DNA of 64,000 nucleotides from Halopseudomonas laoshanensis (GTDB lineage: Bacteria > Pseudomonadota > Gammaproteobacteria > Pseudomonadales > Pseudomonadaceae), in contig NZ_QOVF01000001.1 of the NCBI RefSeq assembly GCF_008365385.1, forward strand, positions 620,001 through 684,000. The letters run 5' to 3'. The position numbers and the translations under genes were made by a program. Of the stretch, positions 2,334 through 10,356 are shown piece after piece. The notes below the pieces were generated by a model. The model ran no database searches. It had not been told where the DNA came from and saw nothing but the letters and a program-made list of their open reading frames with translations. How positions within the stretch are numbered: the first letter of the stretch is position 1; each line of letters opens with the position of its first letter.

Positions 2334-2348
2334 CACAACGTAGTTGTG
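2334..2348. promoter_or_regulatory. CACAACGTAGTTGTG palindrome upstream of the Mrr-like gene
   Basis: A 15-bp palindrome with 7-bp arms lies about 65 bp before the endonuclease start. The same element, with C for T near the centre, recurs at 5607-5621 upstream of the decayed copy of this gene. It is therefore probably an operator or transcript element belonging to the gene. Confidence 0.45.
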
Positions 2349-2412
2349 GTGTTTGCAGACGGGAAGGTTTACCTTTATGGGAAGGCATTATGCCACTCTC
2401 AGGAGCCCATGG

Positions 2413-3273
2413 ATGGCGCGCAAACGTACTTCAACCTTTGAAGACCTGGTAACCCTCCTTTCACGACTGCCCTGGTGGGCAAGTCTGCTGATTGGCGTTG
2501 TCAGTTGGCTGATCCTGCGGCCCGTTGCTACCAGTCCTATGGCTGCTCCCGCAGGCGCCACGCTCGATGACCTCTCCGGAATAATGCTCAGCCAGGCCTG
2601 GCGCGTCTTCGCGATGTTCGGCCAATACCTGATCCCGATTATCTGTCTCTTTGGCGCCATAGGCTCCATCGTTGGCCGCCAGAGCCGCAAGAAACTACTT
2701 AACAACGTCAAATCAGCTACCCAGCCCGGCAAAGCCATAGATGGCCTCGGCTGGCGGGAGTTCGAGCACCTGATTGGTGAGGCTTTTCGAAGAAAGGGCT
2801 ACAGCATCACTGAAACCGGAGGCAACGGCGCAGACGGCGGAATAGATCTCATCCTGCGCAAGAGCGGGGAAAAGTATCTGGTGCAGTGCAAACATTGGCG
2901 CTCGATGAAGGTAGGCGTACCGGTAGTGCGGGAGTTCTTTGGTGCGATGGCGGTTGAGGGTGCTGCCGGTGGTTTCGTTGTTACCTCTGGGCAGTTCACT
3001 GCAGAGGCTAAGAGCTTTGCGGAGGGGCGCAATATTCAGTTGGTGGATGGTGGCAATCTCAAACGTCTATTGGCGAACCGCAACCCGACAAGCTCTGTTA
3101 CTGAGCTCGATAGGACTTCGAAGCCAGCACCGCAGCCAGTAGAGGCAGAGCCTGCTTGCCCCTTGTGCAAGAGCGCAATGATCAAACGGACTGCGAGGAA
3201 AGGTGCCAATGCTGGAAATGTATTTTGGGGGTGTGGGACTTATCCAAAATGCCGTGGGGTGGTGAATGTCTGA
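2413..3273 (+). CDS. Mrr-like restriction endonuclease with N-terminal membrane segments and C-terminal zinc finger
   Basis: Predicted membrane-anchored nuclease of 286 residues. Two hydrophobic segments near residues 18-35 and 55-75 precede an Mrr-type catalytic domain at about 105-215. Its core is readable as the GWREFEHLIGEAFRRKGY helix, then GGNGADGGIDLIL and KYLVQCKHWR, giving the D-x(n)-Q-x-K pattern of the PD-(D/E)XK fold. A topoisomerase-type zinc ribbon ends the protein (CPLCKSAM, then CGTYPKCRG). The start at 2413 has AGGAG seven bases upstream. Mrr proteins act as type IV restriction enzymes on modified DNA. The membrane-plus-zinc-ribbon form is widespread and its role is less certain. 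The next gene overlaps its end by 8 bp. Confidence 0.85.
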   Translation: MARKRTSTFEDLVTLLSRLPWWASLLIGVVSWLILRPVATSPMAAPAGATLDDLSGIMLSQAWRVFAMFGQYLIPIICLFGAIGSIVGRQSRKKLLNNVKSATQPGKAIDGLGWREFEHLIGEAFRRKGYSITETGGNGADGGIDLILRKSGEKYLVQCKHWRSMKVGVPVVREFFGAMAVEGAAGGFVVTSGQFTAEAKSFAEGRNIQLVDGGNLKRLLANRNPTSSVTELDRTSKPAPQPVEAEPACPLCKSAMIKRTARKGANAGNVFWGCGTYPKCRGVVNV

Positions 3274-3916: not shown

Positions 3917-4018
3917 ATGCCGAAGGGGAAATGAAGCCAACTGGAAATTTCGCAGCGCGATTCTTAATAAACCAAAGAAATGACTTTTGGAATGCAGGTT
4001 AAAAAAGGATATACGCAC

Positions 4019-5383
4019 ATGGAACGGCCCGAATACGTAATTCAAGCTGAAGTAGCCCGCCTGATACCCGTGGTAGCCGATACCAACCGAGAGCAACGCG
4101 CGGCTTCGATTTTGCTTGCAGCGCTGCGTGGTGTTTATGAATTCCGGCAGATGATGTTTGCTTCAATCGGGCATCGAGTTGCCGCTCGTGCCCGGATGGG
4201 AGCCTGGACTGAGGTAGCGCTGGAATGTGATTTGGACATACCCAAAAAGGATCGCCCTGACGGCCTGGTACAGATCGTGACCGGCAACAAACAATGGTCC
4301 GCATTGATTGAGGCGAAGATCGGCAACAACGAAGTAGGCGAAGAGCAGCTAAAACGTTATCTGTTGCAAGCCAAGAAGAACAAAATCGATGCCGTCATTA
4401 CCATCACTAACCAATTTGTAGCCTTGCCAACCCATCACCCCGTGAAGCTTCCCAAAACGTTGCTGAAAGGCATTGAGCTCTATCATTGGTCTTGGATGTA
4501 CGCCGTTACGCAGGCGACTTTGCTTCTGGATTCAGGCGACATTACTTCACCCGACCAAAGATTCATTCTTGAAGAAGTGCTCCGTTATTTCAGCCACGAC
4601 TCCAGCGGCGTAACGCGGTTCGACAGTATGAATCGTGAGTGGAAGGACGTAGTTGCCAAGGTGAAAAGCGGAGCCGTGCTGGGGAAGAGCACTGAAGAGG
4701 TAGAAAACACGGTCTCGAGCTGGCATCAGGAACAGCGTGACTTGAGCCTTGTCATGAGTCGCAAGCTCGGCCGGCAGGTGAAACAGAAAATCAGCAAGAC
4801 CCACCGCAATGAACCTGTCCTGCGCCTCAAGGAAGACTGTGAGTTACTTGCTAAAGAGCACAAGCTTATCTGTTGCTTGACGATACCTGATGCTGCTGCC
4901 GACCTGGATATCACCGCCGACCTGACCAAACGCACCATCACCTGCTCAATGCGCTTGAGCGCCCCACAGGACAAAGTGCGCAGTTCGGCACGTGTGAATT
5001 GGCTGATCAAGCAAGTTAGCAAAGCCAATGCGGAAGGATTTTACGTCAAAGCAATCCGCCCTGGCCGAGCAGAGGAAACCCAAACGCCGCTGGCGAAGCT
5101 ACTAGCTGACGGCAACGCCCTGGAGACGCTTTCCACCAACGTGGTGCCCAGCGCTTTTGAAGTCTTTTACATGGCCGATCTGGGGGCGCGCTTCTCCGGG
5201 GCGAGAATCTTTATCGAAGAGCTGGAAAAGGCGGTGCCGCATTTTTATCAGGAGGTTGGGCAGAGCCTTAGGGCTTGGGTGGCGCCGCCTCCGAAATTGC
5301 AGAAGCGTGATCCGGTTGAAGTGATGGGGATAGAAGATAGTGAGGAGGCTGAGGAGGCTGCCGCAGAGTCAGTTGGTGGTTGA
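4019..5383 (+). CDS. Hypothetical protein with probable PD-(D/E)XK nuclease-like N-terminus
   Basis: Soluble protein of 454 residues. I chose the ATG at 4019 because AAGGAT lies 8 bases upstream and the sequence from MERPEYVIQAEVARL looks native. In the first 130 residues RPDGLVQIV is followed by WSALIEAKIGNNEVGEEQL, the D...E-x-K arrangement of the PD-(D/E)XK nuclease fold. The rest is unassigned, and the C-terminus is rich in glutamate and alanine. It lies about 100 bp after the membrane protein gene on the same strand, so the three genes may form a restriction or defence locus. Comparable proteins are often annotated as hypothetical or stress-response proteins. Nuclease activity is inferred from motif spacing alone. 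Confidence 0.7.
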   Translation: MERPEYVIQAEVARLIPVVADTNREQRAASILLAALRGVYEFRQMMFASIGHRVAARARMGAWTEVALECDLDIPKKDRPDGLVQIVTGNKQWSALIEAKIGNNEVGEEQLKRYLLQAKKNKIDAVITITNQFVALPTHHPVKLPKTLLKGIELYHWSWMYAVTQATLLLDSGDITSPDQRFILEEVLRYFSHDSSGVTRFDSMNREWKDVVAKVKSGAVLGKSTEEVENTVSSWHQEQRDLSLVMSRKLGRQVKQKISKTHRNEPVLRLKEDCELLAKEHKLICCLTIPDAAADLDITADLTKRTITCSMRLSAPQDKVRSSARVNWLIKQVSKANAEGFYVKAIRPGRAEETQTPLAKLLADGNALETLSTNVVPSAFEVFYMADLGARFSGARIFIEELEKAVPHFYQEVGQSLRAWVAPPPKLQKRDPVEVMGIEDSEEAEEAAAESVGG

Positions 5384-5606: not shown

Positions 5607-5760
5607 CACAACGCAGTTGTGACGCTTATAGGCTGGAGCGGTTATTTCAGGACAGACCATCATGTCTCTCTCAGGAGCCCATGGTTGGCGCGGAAACATA
5701 CTCTGCGTTCGAAGACTTGATCCCCATCTCTAGCCTTGGCGGGCGAGTTTGCTAATTGAT
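5607..5760 (+). pseudogene. Decayed duplicate of the 5' end of the Mrr-like endonuclease gene
   Basis: This stretch repeats the upstream palindrome (CACAACGCAGTTGTG), the leader with TCAGGAGCCCATGG, and the first roughly 75 coding bases of the gene at 2413, with many substitutions. The start codon has become TTG at 5685, and a frame change after about ten codons leads to a stop. The copy then ends. The rest of the 5384-5942 gap holds no convincing gene. The remnant suggests an old tandem duplication, or deletion of a second related locus that once ended here. Confidence 0.7.
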
Positions 5761-5942: not shown

Positions 5943-6470
5943 TTATATATAGTTTATAAGAAAGATAAAAAGCAATATTGCTAGAAGCCCAGCAGCAACA
6001 CCATATAGCTCTGGAAAGACTTTGTTGGCCGTCTTTATTAGACCTTTGTCAATGAAATAATACTGGTGAAAAGTGGTGTGAATTTTTTCGCAAACGTTGA
6101 GAGTATTTAATAATGATCTATTACTGATTTCGTCCTGTTTATTCTTCGACATAAGATCAAAGTCAAGATCGCGTAACGGTAGTAGGATTGTAGAAGATAT
6201 TATTTCTGATTTCACATGATAATTTATCTGGGTAATTCGAATTTCAATGTCTGAGAGTTTTGCCGAGTACAGCGTTTCAATTTTACTGGCATTACTACTT
6301 TTTGTTGCGACGGTTTTCTCAAGCCAGTCATTTAGCTTTTCGAGCTTGTCTATTATCGAATCTTTCTGTTTAAGTGCTTCGCTTCTATGTAAAGCTATAT
6401 GGTCTTTAGAGATAACAAAGATCCAACCAAGAACTAATGTTATGAAAGCTACCCAAGGACTTATAGTCAT
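5943..6470 (-). CDS. Two-TM coiled-coil protein, third gene of an AT-rich operon
   Basis: Unrecognised 175-residue protein. A transmembrane helix lies at residues 5-20 (WVAFITLVLGWIFVI). A long, probably coiled-coil region at about 28-95 is rich in Lys, Glu, Ile and Ser. A second hydrophobic helix ends the protein (VAAGLLAILLFIFLINYI). It would span the membrane twice with the coiled coil on one side. Its start is adjacent to the stop of the STAS-like gene, so it is the last gene of a three-gene minus-strand operon. The DNA is visibly AT-rich (one 60-bp line counted at 38% GC), unlike the flanking genes, which suggests acquisition. A role as membrane sensor or effector is inference. Confidence 0.75.
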   Translation of the reverse strand: MTISPWVAFITLVLGWIFVISKDHIALHRSEALKQKDSIIDKLEKLNDWLEKTVATKSSNASKIETLYSAKLSDIEIRITQINYHVKSEIISSTILLPLRDLDFDLMSKNKQDEISNRSLLNTLNVCEKIHTTFHQYYFIDKGLIKTANKVFPELYGVAAGLLAILLFIFLINYI

Positions 6471-6806
6471 CTAGACTTCCATGTCACGTGCGGCGGCAGA
6501 AATTCGATCGGCGATTATCTCTTCTATTGATTTTACTAAAGAGTGTGAATACGTAAGTCTTTCTTCTAGATCCTTTGCAGTAAAACCCTCTTCACGAATC
6601 AGGCCGCCAAAAGCTTCATCTAAAAAAGACCGACCATATCGATTGTAGCCATCCAGAACTACATGGACACTGCCATGTTTTAATAGCGCAGGAACTAAAA
6701 TCCGGCGCCTAAAAGCTTCTCCGCTAGTATCCCCGTCGACATCGATCGTTCGACCGTAAGGAGCTGAATTAAATTCTTTAACAATTATAAGATCATAAGG
6801 AGTCAT
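6471..6806 (-). CDS. STAS-like DUF4325 domain protein
   Basis: Small cytoplasmic protein of 111 residues that fits the STAS-like DUF4325 family. It begins YDLIIVKEFNSAPYGRTIDVDGDTSG, followed by EAFRRRILVPAL, a strand VHVVLDGYNRYG and a helix SFLDEAFGGLIREEGF. This is the order seen in anti-sigma-antagonist-like folds with the DEAFG signature. Proteins of this family usually sit beside or are fused to GHKL ATPases, as here, where the start overlaps the ATPase stop by 4 bp. By analogy with SpoIIAA and SpoIIAB it may be a phosphorylation-controlled switch partner of the ATPase. That is inference, because no sigma factor or phosphatase gene is adjacent. Confidence 0.85.
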   Translation of the reverse strand: MTPYDLIIVKEFNSAPYGRTIDVDGDTSGEAFRRRILVPALLKHGSVHVVLDGYNRYGRSFLDEAFGGLIREEGFTAKDLEERLTYSHSLVKSIEEIIADRISAAARDMEV

Positions 6807-7921
6807 TTTATTTCAATGTTCCACTGAAAAAGTGTGCCTTCAAGTTTTTTTGGAAGATGAAAAAGTTCGAAATGTTTGGTGTCGTAAAATTTATAGAGCC
6901 CATTATTGCTAAAGATCCATAGTTTTCCACCTTCTGTCTCCGAAACTAAGGCTCTGATGCTCTTACTGCCTTGACCATGCTTTTTCTCTTTGGTTCCAGT
7001 CACGTCGGCCTGGAGAGATAGGTGTATTAGCTGGGAATCCTTCAGATCCTTACGGATTGTAGGCAAAAGCCCAGAACTTATCAACTCTGGCTTTTTTTCA
7101 ATTAATTCCTGATAAACTTCTGGATAACTGGTTTTCAATGCGTCCACTACCCACGTACGTCGTAATACGGTTTTAGGAATTCCAACTCCGTTGTCGTATA
7201 TGGCCAAATATAGTTGCTTTCCTTGTACTTGACACAGCAGCCACCAACGGCGCTCTTGATTGGTGTTGTTGCTGTCTGGATAGGCATGGCGGTTAACATT
7301 GTTTATTGTTTCTGATACGGCGTCGCCAAAAACATGTTCGGTTTCCGGGTTCAGCTTTCCGTCATATATTTTGTCTCTTATATAGTCAAGTATGTCTTCC
7401 ATGTAGTCTTTTTTTGTACTTGATACTATGGGGAGGTGTTTGTAGGATTTAGGTGTGTATTTTGATATGCGAGACTTTATTACTTTGGGGAAATTTAGCC
7501 GGCACAAAGTTGAACGAACGGTGTCAGATGAGCTTGGTAATCTTATGATTGATTGTCTCGTGTTGTTATAGCGACTTTTTTCTGAGGCAATTTCTAACGC
7601 GGCGTAAGTGGCTATCAAAGCAGCCCCCGTTACTTGCTTTGTTTCTGAGAAATCTATAGAGCACGGTTGGAAGGGGATATATTTCTTTATATCCTGAATG
7701 AAGCGCAAAGTTCTTGTGAGTGCGTCGGCGGATTGTTCGTCGCCACCATAGATACAAAGCTTCTCTGGCGCCGGTATGGACTTATATCCCAAAAAACTTT
7801 TTTCTTGATTCGGTTTTTTATCGAGAAAGTATTTTTTATTTTTTCTTTTCAGCGCCGTTAGATGCCGTCTTGTTGAAGCTTTAATGAGAGTTAGTTTTTG
7901 TTCTGTTTTTAATAGCTTCAT
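6803..7921 (-). CDS. GHKL-type ATP-binding protein, first gene of the DUF4325 operon
   Basis: Protein of 372 residues with a basic, lysine-rich N-terminus, a middle region of unknown fold and a C-terminal GHKL ATPase domain. The ATPase N-box is ETINNVNRHAYPDS, the G1 box is LAIYDNGVGIPKTVL, and the G2 region is KEKKHGQGSKSIRALV. There is no obvious phospho-acceptor histidine domain or membrane segment, so it resembles anti-sigma-factor-type kinases more than a sensor kinase. It leads an operon with the DUF4325 and two-TM genes and shares their low GC. No Shine-Dalgarno sequence is clear before the ATG at 7921. The cellular role is unknown. A stress switch or a phage-defence module are both open. 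Confidence 0.8.
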   Translation of the reverse strand: MKLLKTEQKLTLIKASTRRHLTALKRKNKKYFLDKKPNQEKSFLGYKSIPAPEKLCIYGGDEQSADALTRTLRFIQDIKKYIPFQPCSIDFSETKQVTGAALIATYAALEIASEKSRYNNTRQSIIRLPSSSDTVRSTLCRLNFPKVIKSRISKYTPKSYKHLPIVSSTKKDYMEDILDYIRDKIYDGKLNPETEHVFGDAVSETINNVNRHAYPDSNNTNQERRWWLLCQVQGKQLYLAIYDNGVGIPKTVLRRTWVVDALKTSYPEVYQELIEKKPELISSGLLPTIRKDLKDSQLIHLSLQADVTGTKEKKHGQGSKSIRALVSETEGGKLWIFSNNGLYKFYDTKHFELFHLPKKLEGTLFQWNIEIK

Positions 7922-8846
7922 TTTTAAAAACCCTAAAGCGGGTTTGATTCCTTTTTTGGTCTCGTCCTGGTTTTAGAACTATAATCAATCCAGGCTCAAC
8001 GCACCACTAATTTGATGCCAATCACCCCGCACAGCCTCAGAAATTCTCACCTCGCTCACCGTAGACAATTATTACTCGACTTCTGTCCATGAGGTGCTGC
8101 TTCGACTCTATTTTAGAGCGGCAGTACGTGAATCACGATCTGCTTCTAGAATCTTGATGCGCCGACAAAAATCGAGGCTGCATTGTTGGCCGGGTGAAAA
8201 ATTAACATAGCGAGACTCTGTGAAAAAAATGGACGTTGGATTTATTTGTCACATCCCATATCCCAAACTCGAATCTGAGCGAACTGTTAAGCTGCGATCC
8301 CGTTACCCTTTTCATGTTCTGCTTTGAATTTGTGTTGATCCCTGCGCCTCTGAACTCGTGTTGTAACGTTCAAGCTCGCCAAACGTCCGCGAATCCAAAT
8401 AAAACAGCCACTCAGCCACCATAGTAGGCCGCCCATCCTCCAGCTCAGCTTCACCTCCTGCTTAAATATGCAGGCTCCGCTTGGCTGTACACCAGTTAAC
8501 GCGCGCCCACACGCACCCGAAATTTCGCCCCCACTGACATCTGCCCAACAAAGCGCAACCGATCAAAACCGTAATTTAGCGCAAAATTCTTGTCGATGAC
8601 TGGTCGGGCTTATGGCTTTGGCGTGCAGCTTGATAGGTGCGACACCTGCCGAAATCCCTGAACGATGGTGCCGCCGTAGCTTGGTTTCTGAGTGGCGCGT
8701 GCTGAGACCATTCGCCTTCATTGTTGCCGGTTAGCGCGGCGTATTCGCCCACCATGGCCTGGGTAATCACAAATCGCCTCGCAGTGTGCTGATCTTCACC
8801 TCGCACGATCTTCTTTGTCGTTACACCAGGCTTGGCTTGACCCCAA
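7922..8846. other. Gene-poor 0.9-kb stretch between the AT-rich operon and the HxlR gene
   Basis: I see no gene here. The first 80 bases must carry the promoter of the minus-strand ATPase operon (a TATAGT-like -10 is readable on that strand around 7980). The remainder has short frames only. One minus-strand frame at about 8576-8806 has a faint MaoC-like stretch (FVITQAMVGEYAALTG) but no full domain. The composition drifts from AT-rich to GC-rich, as expected at the edge of an insertion. Confidence 0.5.
8636..8659 (+). repeat. 24-bp direct repeat copy 1, GGTGCGACACCTGC core
   Basis: It matches 11806-11829 at 21 of 24 positions in the same orientation. The core AGGTGYGACACCT is close to palindromic. 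The two copies lie just outside the segment holding the HxlR, quinone reductase, F420-reductase-like and GNAT genes. Confidence 0.5.
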
Positions 8847-9336: not shown

Positions 9337-10356
9337 ATGAAAGCTGTTCGATGGACGACAGGGCCCAAGCCCGACCTGGAATGCCATGACGAGCCCGTGC
9401 CCACACCTGGTCCACATGACGTATTGATTCGGGTGCACGCGGCTTCGCTGAATTTTCGCGATCAGGCCATTCTGGATGGCAGGTATGGCGCGCGGCTCCA
9501 GCAGAACGGGGTCCCGTTGTCAGATGGAGCAGGGGAGGTGATTGCCGTAGGCAGCGCAGTGCGCAGGGTGAAAATAGGTGACCGGGTTACGGCATCATGC
9601 CATCCAACTTGGGTCGGTGGCGTGGCAATGCCTGAGTATCAGGAAAACAGCCTGGGCATAACCAGTGATGGTTGGCTTGCGCAATACATCCTCCTGAACG
9701 AAGTTGCTTTGGTTCATATTCCTTCCTACATGTCTTATATCGAGGCCGCCTCCTTGCCGTGTGCCGCTGTAACCGCCTGGACTGGGCTTAACCTGACGGC
9801 GCCTCTACAGCCTGGTCAGACAGTACTTGTTCAAGGTACAGGTGGTGTCGCGCTGTTTTCACTCCAGATTGCGCGCATGTTCGGCGCGCGCGTTTTCGCT
9901 ATTACATCCTCTGATGAAAAGGCTGAAAAATTGAAAGGCTGGGGCGCTGAGGCGGTTGTCAATTACCGCACCTTTCCTGACTGGGAAAAGCACATCCTTG
10001 ATCTCACCGGAGGCAAAGGTGTCGATAAAGTGATGGATATCGCTGGCGAAAAAACGATCGTCAAATCGGCCGCTGCCACCCGAAATGGCGGGTCCATTTC
10101 AGTCGTTGGCTTCACTAGTGGATTTGGTGGTGGGTTACCTCCAATGGACATCCTCTCGCGCACCCTTACCGTGGCGGGTACTGCCATTGGGCCCCGCTCA
10201 GATTTTGACGCATTGATGGCCGCCATGGCACAGCATGAGGTCAAGCCTGTCATCGATCAGGTGTTTCCGTTCTCCTCATACCGTGACGCCTACCGTCGAC
10301 TTGAGAGCGGCGAGCACGTTGGCAAAATCGTCATCAATCAGTTCTCAGAGGAGTAA
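9337..10356 (+). CDS. Medium-chain NAD(P)-dependent alcohol dehydrogenase / quinone oxidoreductase
   Basis: Member of the medium-chain dehydrogenase/reductase superfamily, 339 residues. The GroES-like domain covers about 1-130 (HDVLIRVHAASLNFRDQAILDGRYG and the SDGAGEVIAVGSAVRRVKIGDRV stretch). The Rossmann domain follows with VLVQGTGGVALFSLQIARMFG. The usual catalytic-zinc cysteine is replaced by asparagine (SLNFRD) and the structural zinc cysteines are absent, which points to a zinc-independent quinone or enone reductase. It is divergent from an HxlR repressor with a shared palindrome and is followed after 4 bp by an F420-reductase-like gene, so the two probably form an HxlR-controlled operon for reactive carbonyls or quinones. 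Confidence 0.92.
   Translation: MKAVRWTTGPKPDLECHDEPVPTPGPHDVLIRVHAASLNFRDQAILDGRYGARLQQNGVPLSDGAGEVIAVGSAVRRVKIGDRVTASCHPTWVGGVAMPEYQENSLGITSDGWLAQYILLNEVALVHIPSYMSYIEAASLPCAAVTAWTGLNLTAPLQPGQTVLVQGTGGVALFSLQIARMFGARVFAITSSDEKAEKLKGWGAEAVVNYRTFPDWEKHILDLTGGKGVDKVMDIAGEKTIVKSAAATRNGGSISVVGFTSGFGGGLPPMDILSRTLTVAGTAIGPRSDFDALMAAMAQHEVKPVIDQVFPFSSYRDAYRRLESGEHVGKIVINQFSEE

Follow-up and report, generated by a model that had tools for sequence, protein, structure and literature searches.

A conserved gene trio of phages, plasmids and bacterial genomes joins a VapK-like putative kinase and a DUF4325 STAS-like protein to a candidate membrane effector

Three genes on the minus strand of the window, by which we mean the whole 64 kb stretch of DNA that was analysed, lie together as an operon. 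The first of them, K (6803..7921), encodes a STAS-GHKL kinase-like protein of 372 amino acids with matches to phrog_3364, to SpoIIAB/SpoIIAA and to VapK-like proteins. It is followed by S (6471..6806), which encodes the presumed switch protein, a DUF4325 STAS-like protein of 111 amino acids with matches to Pfam DUF4325 and to VapS-like proteins, and by T (5943..6470), which encodes the presumed effector, a helical membrane protein of 175 amino acids with hydrophobic segments and an all-helical structure model. In the list of open reading frames (ORFs) of the window, K and S overlap by 4 nt and S and T abut, as an earlier, sequence-only reading of this DNA had stated; the same reading had called the trio lower in GC than its surroundings, and the GC fraction is indeed 0.392 in the trio vs 0.571 in the rest of the window. 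The gene-poor stretch that it had described lies upstream of K at 7922..8846, where the list of ORFs of at least 60 amino acids holds none over 76. This stretch would hold the operon promoter; a simple scan of its minus strand gave no promoter-like site.

The trio sits among metabolic genes, according to our reading of the window ORFs. The restriction locus beside which it had been placed does exist in the form of an Mrr-type endonuclease gene (2344-3273; Mrr_cat, 1.8e-34), but at a distance of about 2.7 kb it is not far from the trio rather than adjoining it. The stretch that carries the trio is variable within the genus, judging from the gene at 9337-10356, for which a DNA match was obtained in only one of 37 genus genomes, its own. 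Outside its own genome the gene at 1002-2102 gave partial DNA matches only, and an empty site of the trio was thus not definable from these two flanking genes. The same region holds a 45-nt direct repeat, 87% identical between its copies at 2386-2430 and 5658-5702, which may be left over from a duplication or an insertion. One copy lies where the Mrr-type ORF begins and the other about 3.3 kb further on, between the trio and an ORF (3980-5383, plus strand) for a protein of 467 amino acids. That protein has no Pfam match at E 1, and by eye its EAKIGNNE stretch recalls a PD-(D/E)XK nuclease.

The match of K to Pfam HATPase_c is weak (5.6e-4; 20.8 bits, under the cut-off of 26.4), and residues 48-371 match phrog_3364 at 2.8e-57. 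When the family profile of K was compared with known proteins, its C-terminal half resembled SpoIIAB (6.9e-4) and its N-terminal half, weakly, SpoIIAA (0.058), which gives K the order STAS then GHKL. The GHKL motif set is intact, and E204, N208, H212, D243, G245, G316, G318, T363 and W227 are invariant in all 97 aligned K proteins. Between the N box and the G1 box lies a pair of tryptophans, residues 226-227, present in 95/97 and 97/97 proteins, respectively; we know of no such signature in GHKL proteins, and the pair may therefore bind a ligand. Among the models of PADLOC-DB 2.0.0 (2023), K had one weak match (0.03, "trypsin-like") and S and T had none at E 1.

S matches Pfam DUF4325 over residues 28-87 (4.4e-10; 39.6 bits, cut-off 23) and the C-terminal part of phrog_5816 (1.3e-13). 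The suggestion that the ATPase and the STAS-like protein resemble a partner-switching pair is right. In such switches, including SpoIIAB/SpoIIAA and RsbW/RsbV, a GHKL kinase likewise acts with a STAS protein, but in K the STAS and GHKL parts are joined in one chain, with a second STAS protein as partner. It had also been said that no sigma factor or phosphatase accompanies the genes, and none was seen in the operon when the neighbouring window ORFs were read and six of them, the trio included, were searched with Pfam.

The third protein had been read as a coiled-coil membrane protein with two TM segments, and the analysis supports a helical membrane protein. T of the window begins and ends with a hydrophobic segment, and its model (mean pLDDT 92.8) is all-helical, with helices at 5-55, 61-86, 93-100, 109-140 and 144-174. 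An N-terminal hydrophobic segment (mean hydropathy at least 1.2) is present in 91 of 104 representative T proteins, the other 13 having no clear segment at that threshold; such a segment occurs in 34% of shuffled starts, 4% of S and 7% of K. T is the fastest-changing part of the trio, with a median pairwise identity of 0.15, compared to 0.23 for K and 0.42 for S. Modelled T of the window had no PDB match at E 0.001, and T, whose alignment for the PDB search took in 75 of the 104 representatives, has no relative in fold or sequence that points to a pore or a toxin. It is the hydrophobic segments which suggest that T could act on the membrane.

The sequence-only reading had proposed a search for the trio in other genomes, and this search found the three genes conserved together. 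Of 184 sources examined, 180 contained S and four did not; of the 180 loci with S, K adjoined it in 174, T was present in 170, and 166 had all three genes in order. Most of these loci were picked through a motif of S, as the best 80 of 234 genome relatives (L007-L086) and the best 80 of 210 relatives on viral contigs (L105-L184), so that the counts for adjoining K and T presuppose the presence of S, and the same prophage may stand behind some of the genome and viral loci. After the loci had been thinned at 60% K identity and filtered by length, 104 representatives remained, which gave alignments of 97 rows for K and 104 for S; the alignments behind the structure models had 36 rows (T) and 70 rows (S). 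Among the trio loci the K-S gap has a median of -4 nt and lies within -60 to 30 nt in 162/166, and the S-T gap does so in 102/166, although S-T gaps are less sure because the starts of T were chosen by rule. A profile of T, made from the same loci, matched 172 of 9473 ORFs, and 171 of those adjoin S. Over the 104 representatives, the pairwise distances of K, S and T correlate at 0.53-0.64, as against at most 0.09 in permutations. Low GC is typical for the module: flanks of at least 4 kb were available for 73 of the 77 genome trio loci, and the trio had a lower GC than its flanks in 71 of them, with a median difference of -0.10.

The trio is thus a real, conserved module found in temperate phages, plasmids and bacterial genomes. 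Marinobacter phage AS1 carries the same ordered trio, two genes away from a Cro/CI regulator, and alignment confirmed it on the Vibrio plasmids pVS127 and plas4. Gene order and the annotation of S place it on a Leptospira plasmid, an Acinetobacter plasmid and a phage-like Pasteurella plasmid, in the last of which it adjoins an XRE regulator. In Francisella phage KIRK, according to a published table, the trio follows CI and the integrase is close by (PMC7924643). Two more genomes of the window's own genus carry it, among neighbours that look prophage-like by eye.

Close relatives of the window's own proteins are few. With tblastn, K of the window matched one of 50,697 phage records and two of 72,556 plasmid records, and S matched one and 13 of the same records, respectively; a single phage record for either protein means that the trio is rare among sequenced phages. 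The 13 plasmid records were all examined except H6, H10 and H11; among them, L099 and L104 were without K, L103 was without annotation, and in L097 a K cut short adjoins a transposase gene. Used alone as a query, the window's K found little or nothing among viral and genome contigs. A class-wide search with the K profile gave matches in 10 of 274 genomes, its own included; four of these (L092-L095) were without S and were taken as general GHKL matches, and one more (L091 and L096, overlapping places) had fragments only.

Among 108 immediate neighbours of the viral loci (of 124 listed, with repeats and one first row omitted), the commonest families are integrases and repressors, with 15 matches to phrog_1, 10 to phrog_216, 10 to phrog_4 and 8 to phrog_6201, these counts overlapping; IMG/VR being a viral collection, phage genes are expected there. 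Around the 77 genome trio loci, where a greedy rule gave 130 upstream and 141 downstream ORFs, the commonest Pfam family was Peptidase_S24 upstream (6/130) and Phage_integrase downstream (12/141). PADLOC matches among these genome-locus neighbours were to restriction, methylase and helicase families, at most three members per family. We make no claim that defence genes are enriched around the trio, as these matches are scattered and the scan had no control set. Three upstream neighbours among the loci L007-L086 are MutS; from the size and place of their ORFs we take these loci to be from Pseudomonas, a genus in which phage-tail clusters are known to lie beside mutS.

The closest described relatives of the trio were reported in June 2026 in the EMBO Journal, in a study of CapK/CapS and of a three-gene operon, vapKSC, which encodes a STAS-GHKL kinase, a STAS antitoxin and a PIN toxin (PMC13373217). 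According to that account, CapK is an HTH-STAS-GHKL kinase that, when activated by ssDNA, transfers phosphate to a serine of the STAS repressor CapS, and vapKSC protects against phage Bas42 by about 2 logs (PMC13373217). Activation by ssDNA is tied to a conserved aromatic residue, which in VapK is F54. The order of genes in our trio, kinase, STAS protein, third gene, is that of vapKSC, and the first two proteins are homologous to VapK and VapS over nearly their full length: with hhalign, K matched six VapK-like proteins, three of which come from operons with a PIN gene, at probability 99.5 (E 2.6e-22, 273 columns), and S matched six VapS-like proteins at probability 97.6 (E 3.8e-12, 101 columns). 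A fragment of VapS (PDB 9z7o) itself matches DUF4325 at 2.4e-14. The third gene differs. T gave a probability of 0.2 against three PIN proteins and no PIN match in Pfam, so that the homology to VapKSC covers K and S but stops short of T. K and S of the trio also stand apart as a family of their own that is more tightly knit (the K proteins of trios score 3e-7 or far better, mostly <1e-45, and those of PIN operons 2e-9 to 8e-15 and 6e-5), and the acceptor position of S is occupied by Arg or Ser. To judge from these comparisons, the trio is a sister branch of VapKSC in which a membrane protein takes the effector's place.

In architecture K and S match CapK/CapS too, as a STAS-GHKL kinase adjoining a STAS protein with a conserved serine. 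Unlike them, CapK has an HTH domain and CapS a DNA-binding wHTH (PMC13373217), whereas S, at 111 amino acids, is one STAS-like unit with no room for a wHTH; Pfam found no HTH match in it, and the model shows one helix only after residue 87. The output of the trio would accordingly be T rather than transcription. The earlier view that this set of genes belongs to no named system therefore holds in part: K and S have named homologs, and for the version whose third gene encodes a membrane protein we found no name or description in the literature searched, which took in few subscription papers and left preprints outside its scope. Among the matches listed, only PMC13373217 describes a related system, its main text containing neither DUF4325 nor transmembrane, and PMC7924643 has the trio in a table.

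A spread phylum sample of 398 genomes indicated how common each version is. DUF4325 was found in 29 of them, at 31 places. The 30 loci fetched comprised nine K-S-T loci (the window included), three K-S-PIN loci, four single chains and 14 unclassified loci. Eight of the nine K-S-T loci match the T profile and L213 was assigned by its hydrophobic start only, six are independent of that profile (L192, L195, L198, L208, L209 and L211), L209 has a T without a segment above the threshold, and L208 has a short K; two of the K-S-PIN loci were recognized by Pfam and the third by similarity to those two. With nine membrane forms to three PIN forms among 30 loci, 14 of them unclassified, the published PIN form may not be the main one. 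The four single chains (L191, L202, L203 and L212) are 335-424 amino acids long, with HATPase followed by DUF4325, and two of them have a weak or clear N-terminal HTH match. The family phrog_5816, which like phrog_3364 is listed with unknown function, is long (441 positions), as these chains are, with S matching its C-terminal part. Such chains appear to be a one-protein form of the switch, and their natural occurrence supports a direct pairing of K with S.

Taken together, we lean towards the view that the trio is a VapKSC-like switch on mobile DNA, in which the membrane protein replaces VapC and phosphorylation of S by K releases T. This view builds on the operon and its conservation, the homology of K and S, the GHKL set, the invariant serine, and the segments and third position of T, all of which are observed; we infer from them the phosphorylation, the binding of S to T, the toxicity of T, the trigger and any benefit in defence. 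At rest, S would be bound to T and keep it inactive; the place of T, which is that of the third gene VapC, suggests that T is what S controls. A trigger, which in the case of CapK is ssDNA, would then activate K, which, using ATP, could phosphorylate a serine where the second long helix of S begins. Once phosphorylated, S would let go of T, and freed T could perturb the inner membrane, such that the infected cell stops growing or a competing phage is excluded. A role in defence is plausible, given the homology and the place of the trio in phage lysogeny regions.

The position of the serine bears directly on this mechanism. In two alignments Ser48 of VapS (which is chain residue 66 only if there is an 18-residue tag) falls on position 59 of S, which is Ser in 86 of 104 representatives and Arg in the other 18, the window copy among them. 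All 18 belong to one clade (support 100/99 in a K tree of 102 rows). The next residue, S60, is invariant in 104/104, and in the model of S (pLDDT 97.1) R59-S60 lies at the start and first turn of helix 59-71; the acceptor may thus have moved by one. In the Arg59 clade, the phosphate would go to S60, or else the switch has another way of working. The same clade stands out in T, where a second, C-terminal hydrophobic segment occurs in 16/18 Arg59 and 0/86 Ser59 representatives and, over all 166 loci, in 27/32 Arg and 1/133 Ser loci, one being unreadable. This association comes from one lineage and counts as one event, yet it fits the trace expected of a partnership between S and T.

Other explanations have to be weighed. 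First, T could be the input rather than the output, a membrane sensor or anchor which tells K of envelope or phage-adsorption events, with S as the output, acting on something in the host that the operon does not encode. The fast change of T could suit a sensor of varied signals, and S occurs without an identified third gene in L205, L207 and L217. We nevertheless regard this arrangement as unlikely, since T stands where the homologous vapKSC operon is described as having a toxin held by S (PMC13373217) and since the second T segment goes with the Arg59 form of S, albeit in a single lineage. Second, the trio could be a regulator of the phage's own, tuning lysogeny, induction or superinfection immunity of its carrier with no general defence. 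The neighbourhood of CI-like repressors or integrases in AS1, the phage-like Pasteurella plasmid and KIRK (the last as tabulated in PMC7924643) would suit such a role, as would the prevalence of these families beside the viral loci; the trio is, however, also carried by plasmids with no phage genes in view and, in the window, stands among metabolic genes, and we think it improbable that regulation of the carrier is the whole of its function. Finally, it is quite doubtful that in the window clade the canonical serine goes unphosphorylated and ATP-bound K itself displaces S from T, as Arg59 in the place of the VapS acceptor might imply, given the invariant S60 on the first turn of its helix and the GHKL residues that K keeps.

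A wider form of the preferred reading, in which phosphorylation of S frees T, can be put forward only tentatively. A membrane effector freed on STAS phosphorylation, within a mobile module for abortive infection or superinfection exclusion, might be a main form of the DUF4325 kinase switch, and in the window clade the acceptor might have moved by one residue (Arg59-Ser60) as the effector gained its second membrane segment. The kinase-STAS kind of switch is already known (PMC13373217); new, to judge from the literature searched, is the membrane protein as third gene. If the preferred reading is true, the kinase-STAS switch found in CapKS and VapKSC would serve generally as a sensing unit to which different outputs can be fitted, namely transcription, RNA cleavage and action on the membrane, and an uncharacterised gene trio becomes a testable prediction. 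A role would also be suggested for DUF4325, phrog_3364 and phrog_5816, all of them listed with unknown function.

A last arrangement was seen in the two 0.9-Mb Vibrio plasmid records L099 and L104, where, at 7001-7723 in each, a DUF4325 gene without K beside it is followed by a gene for a protein of 126 amino acids with two hydrophobic segments, an S with a membrane partner and no kinase.
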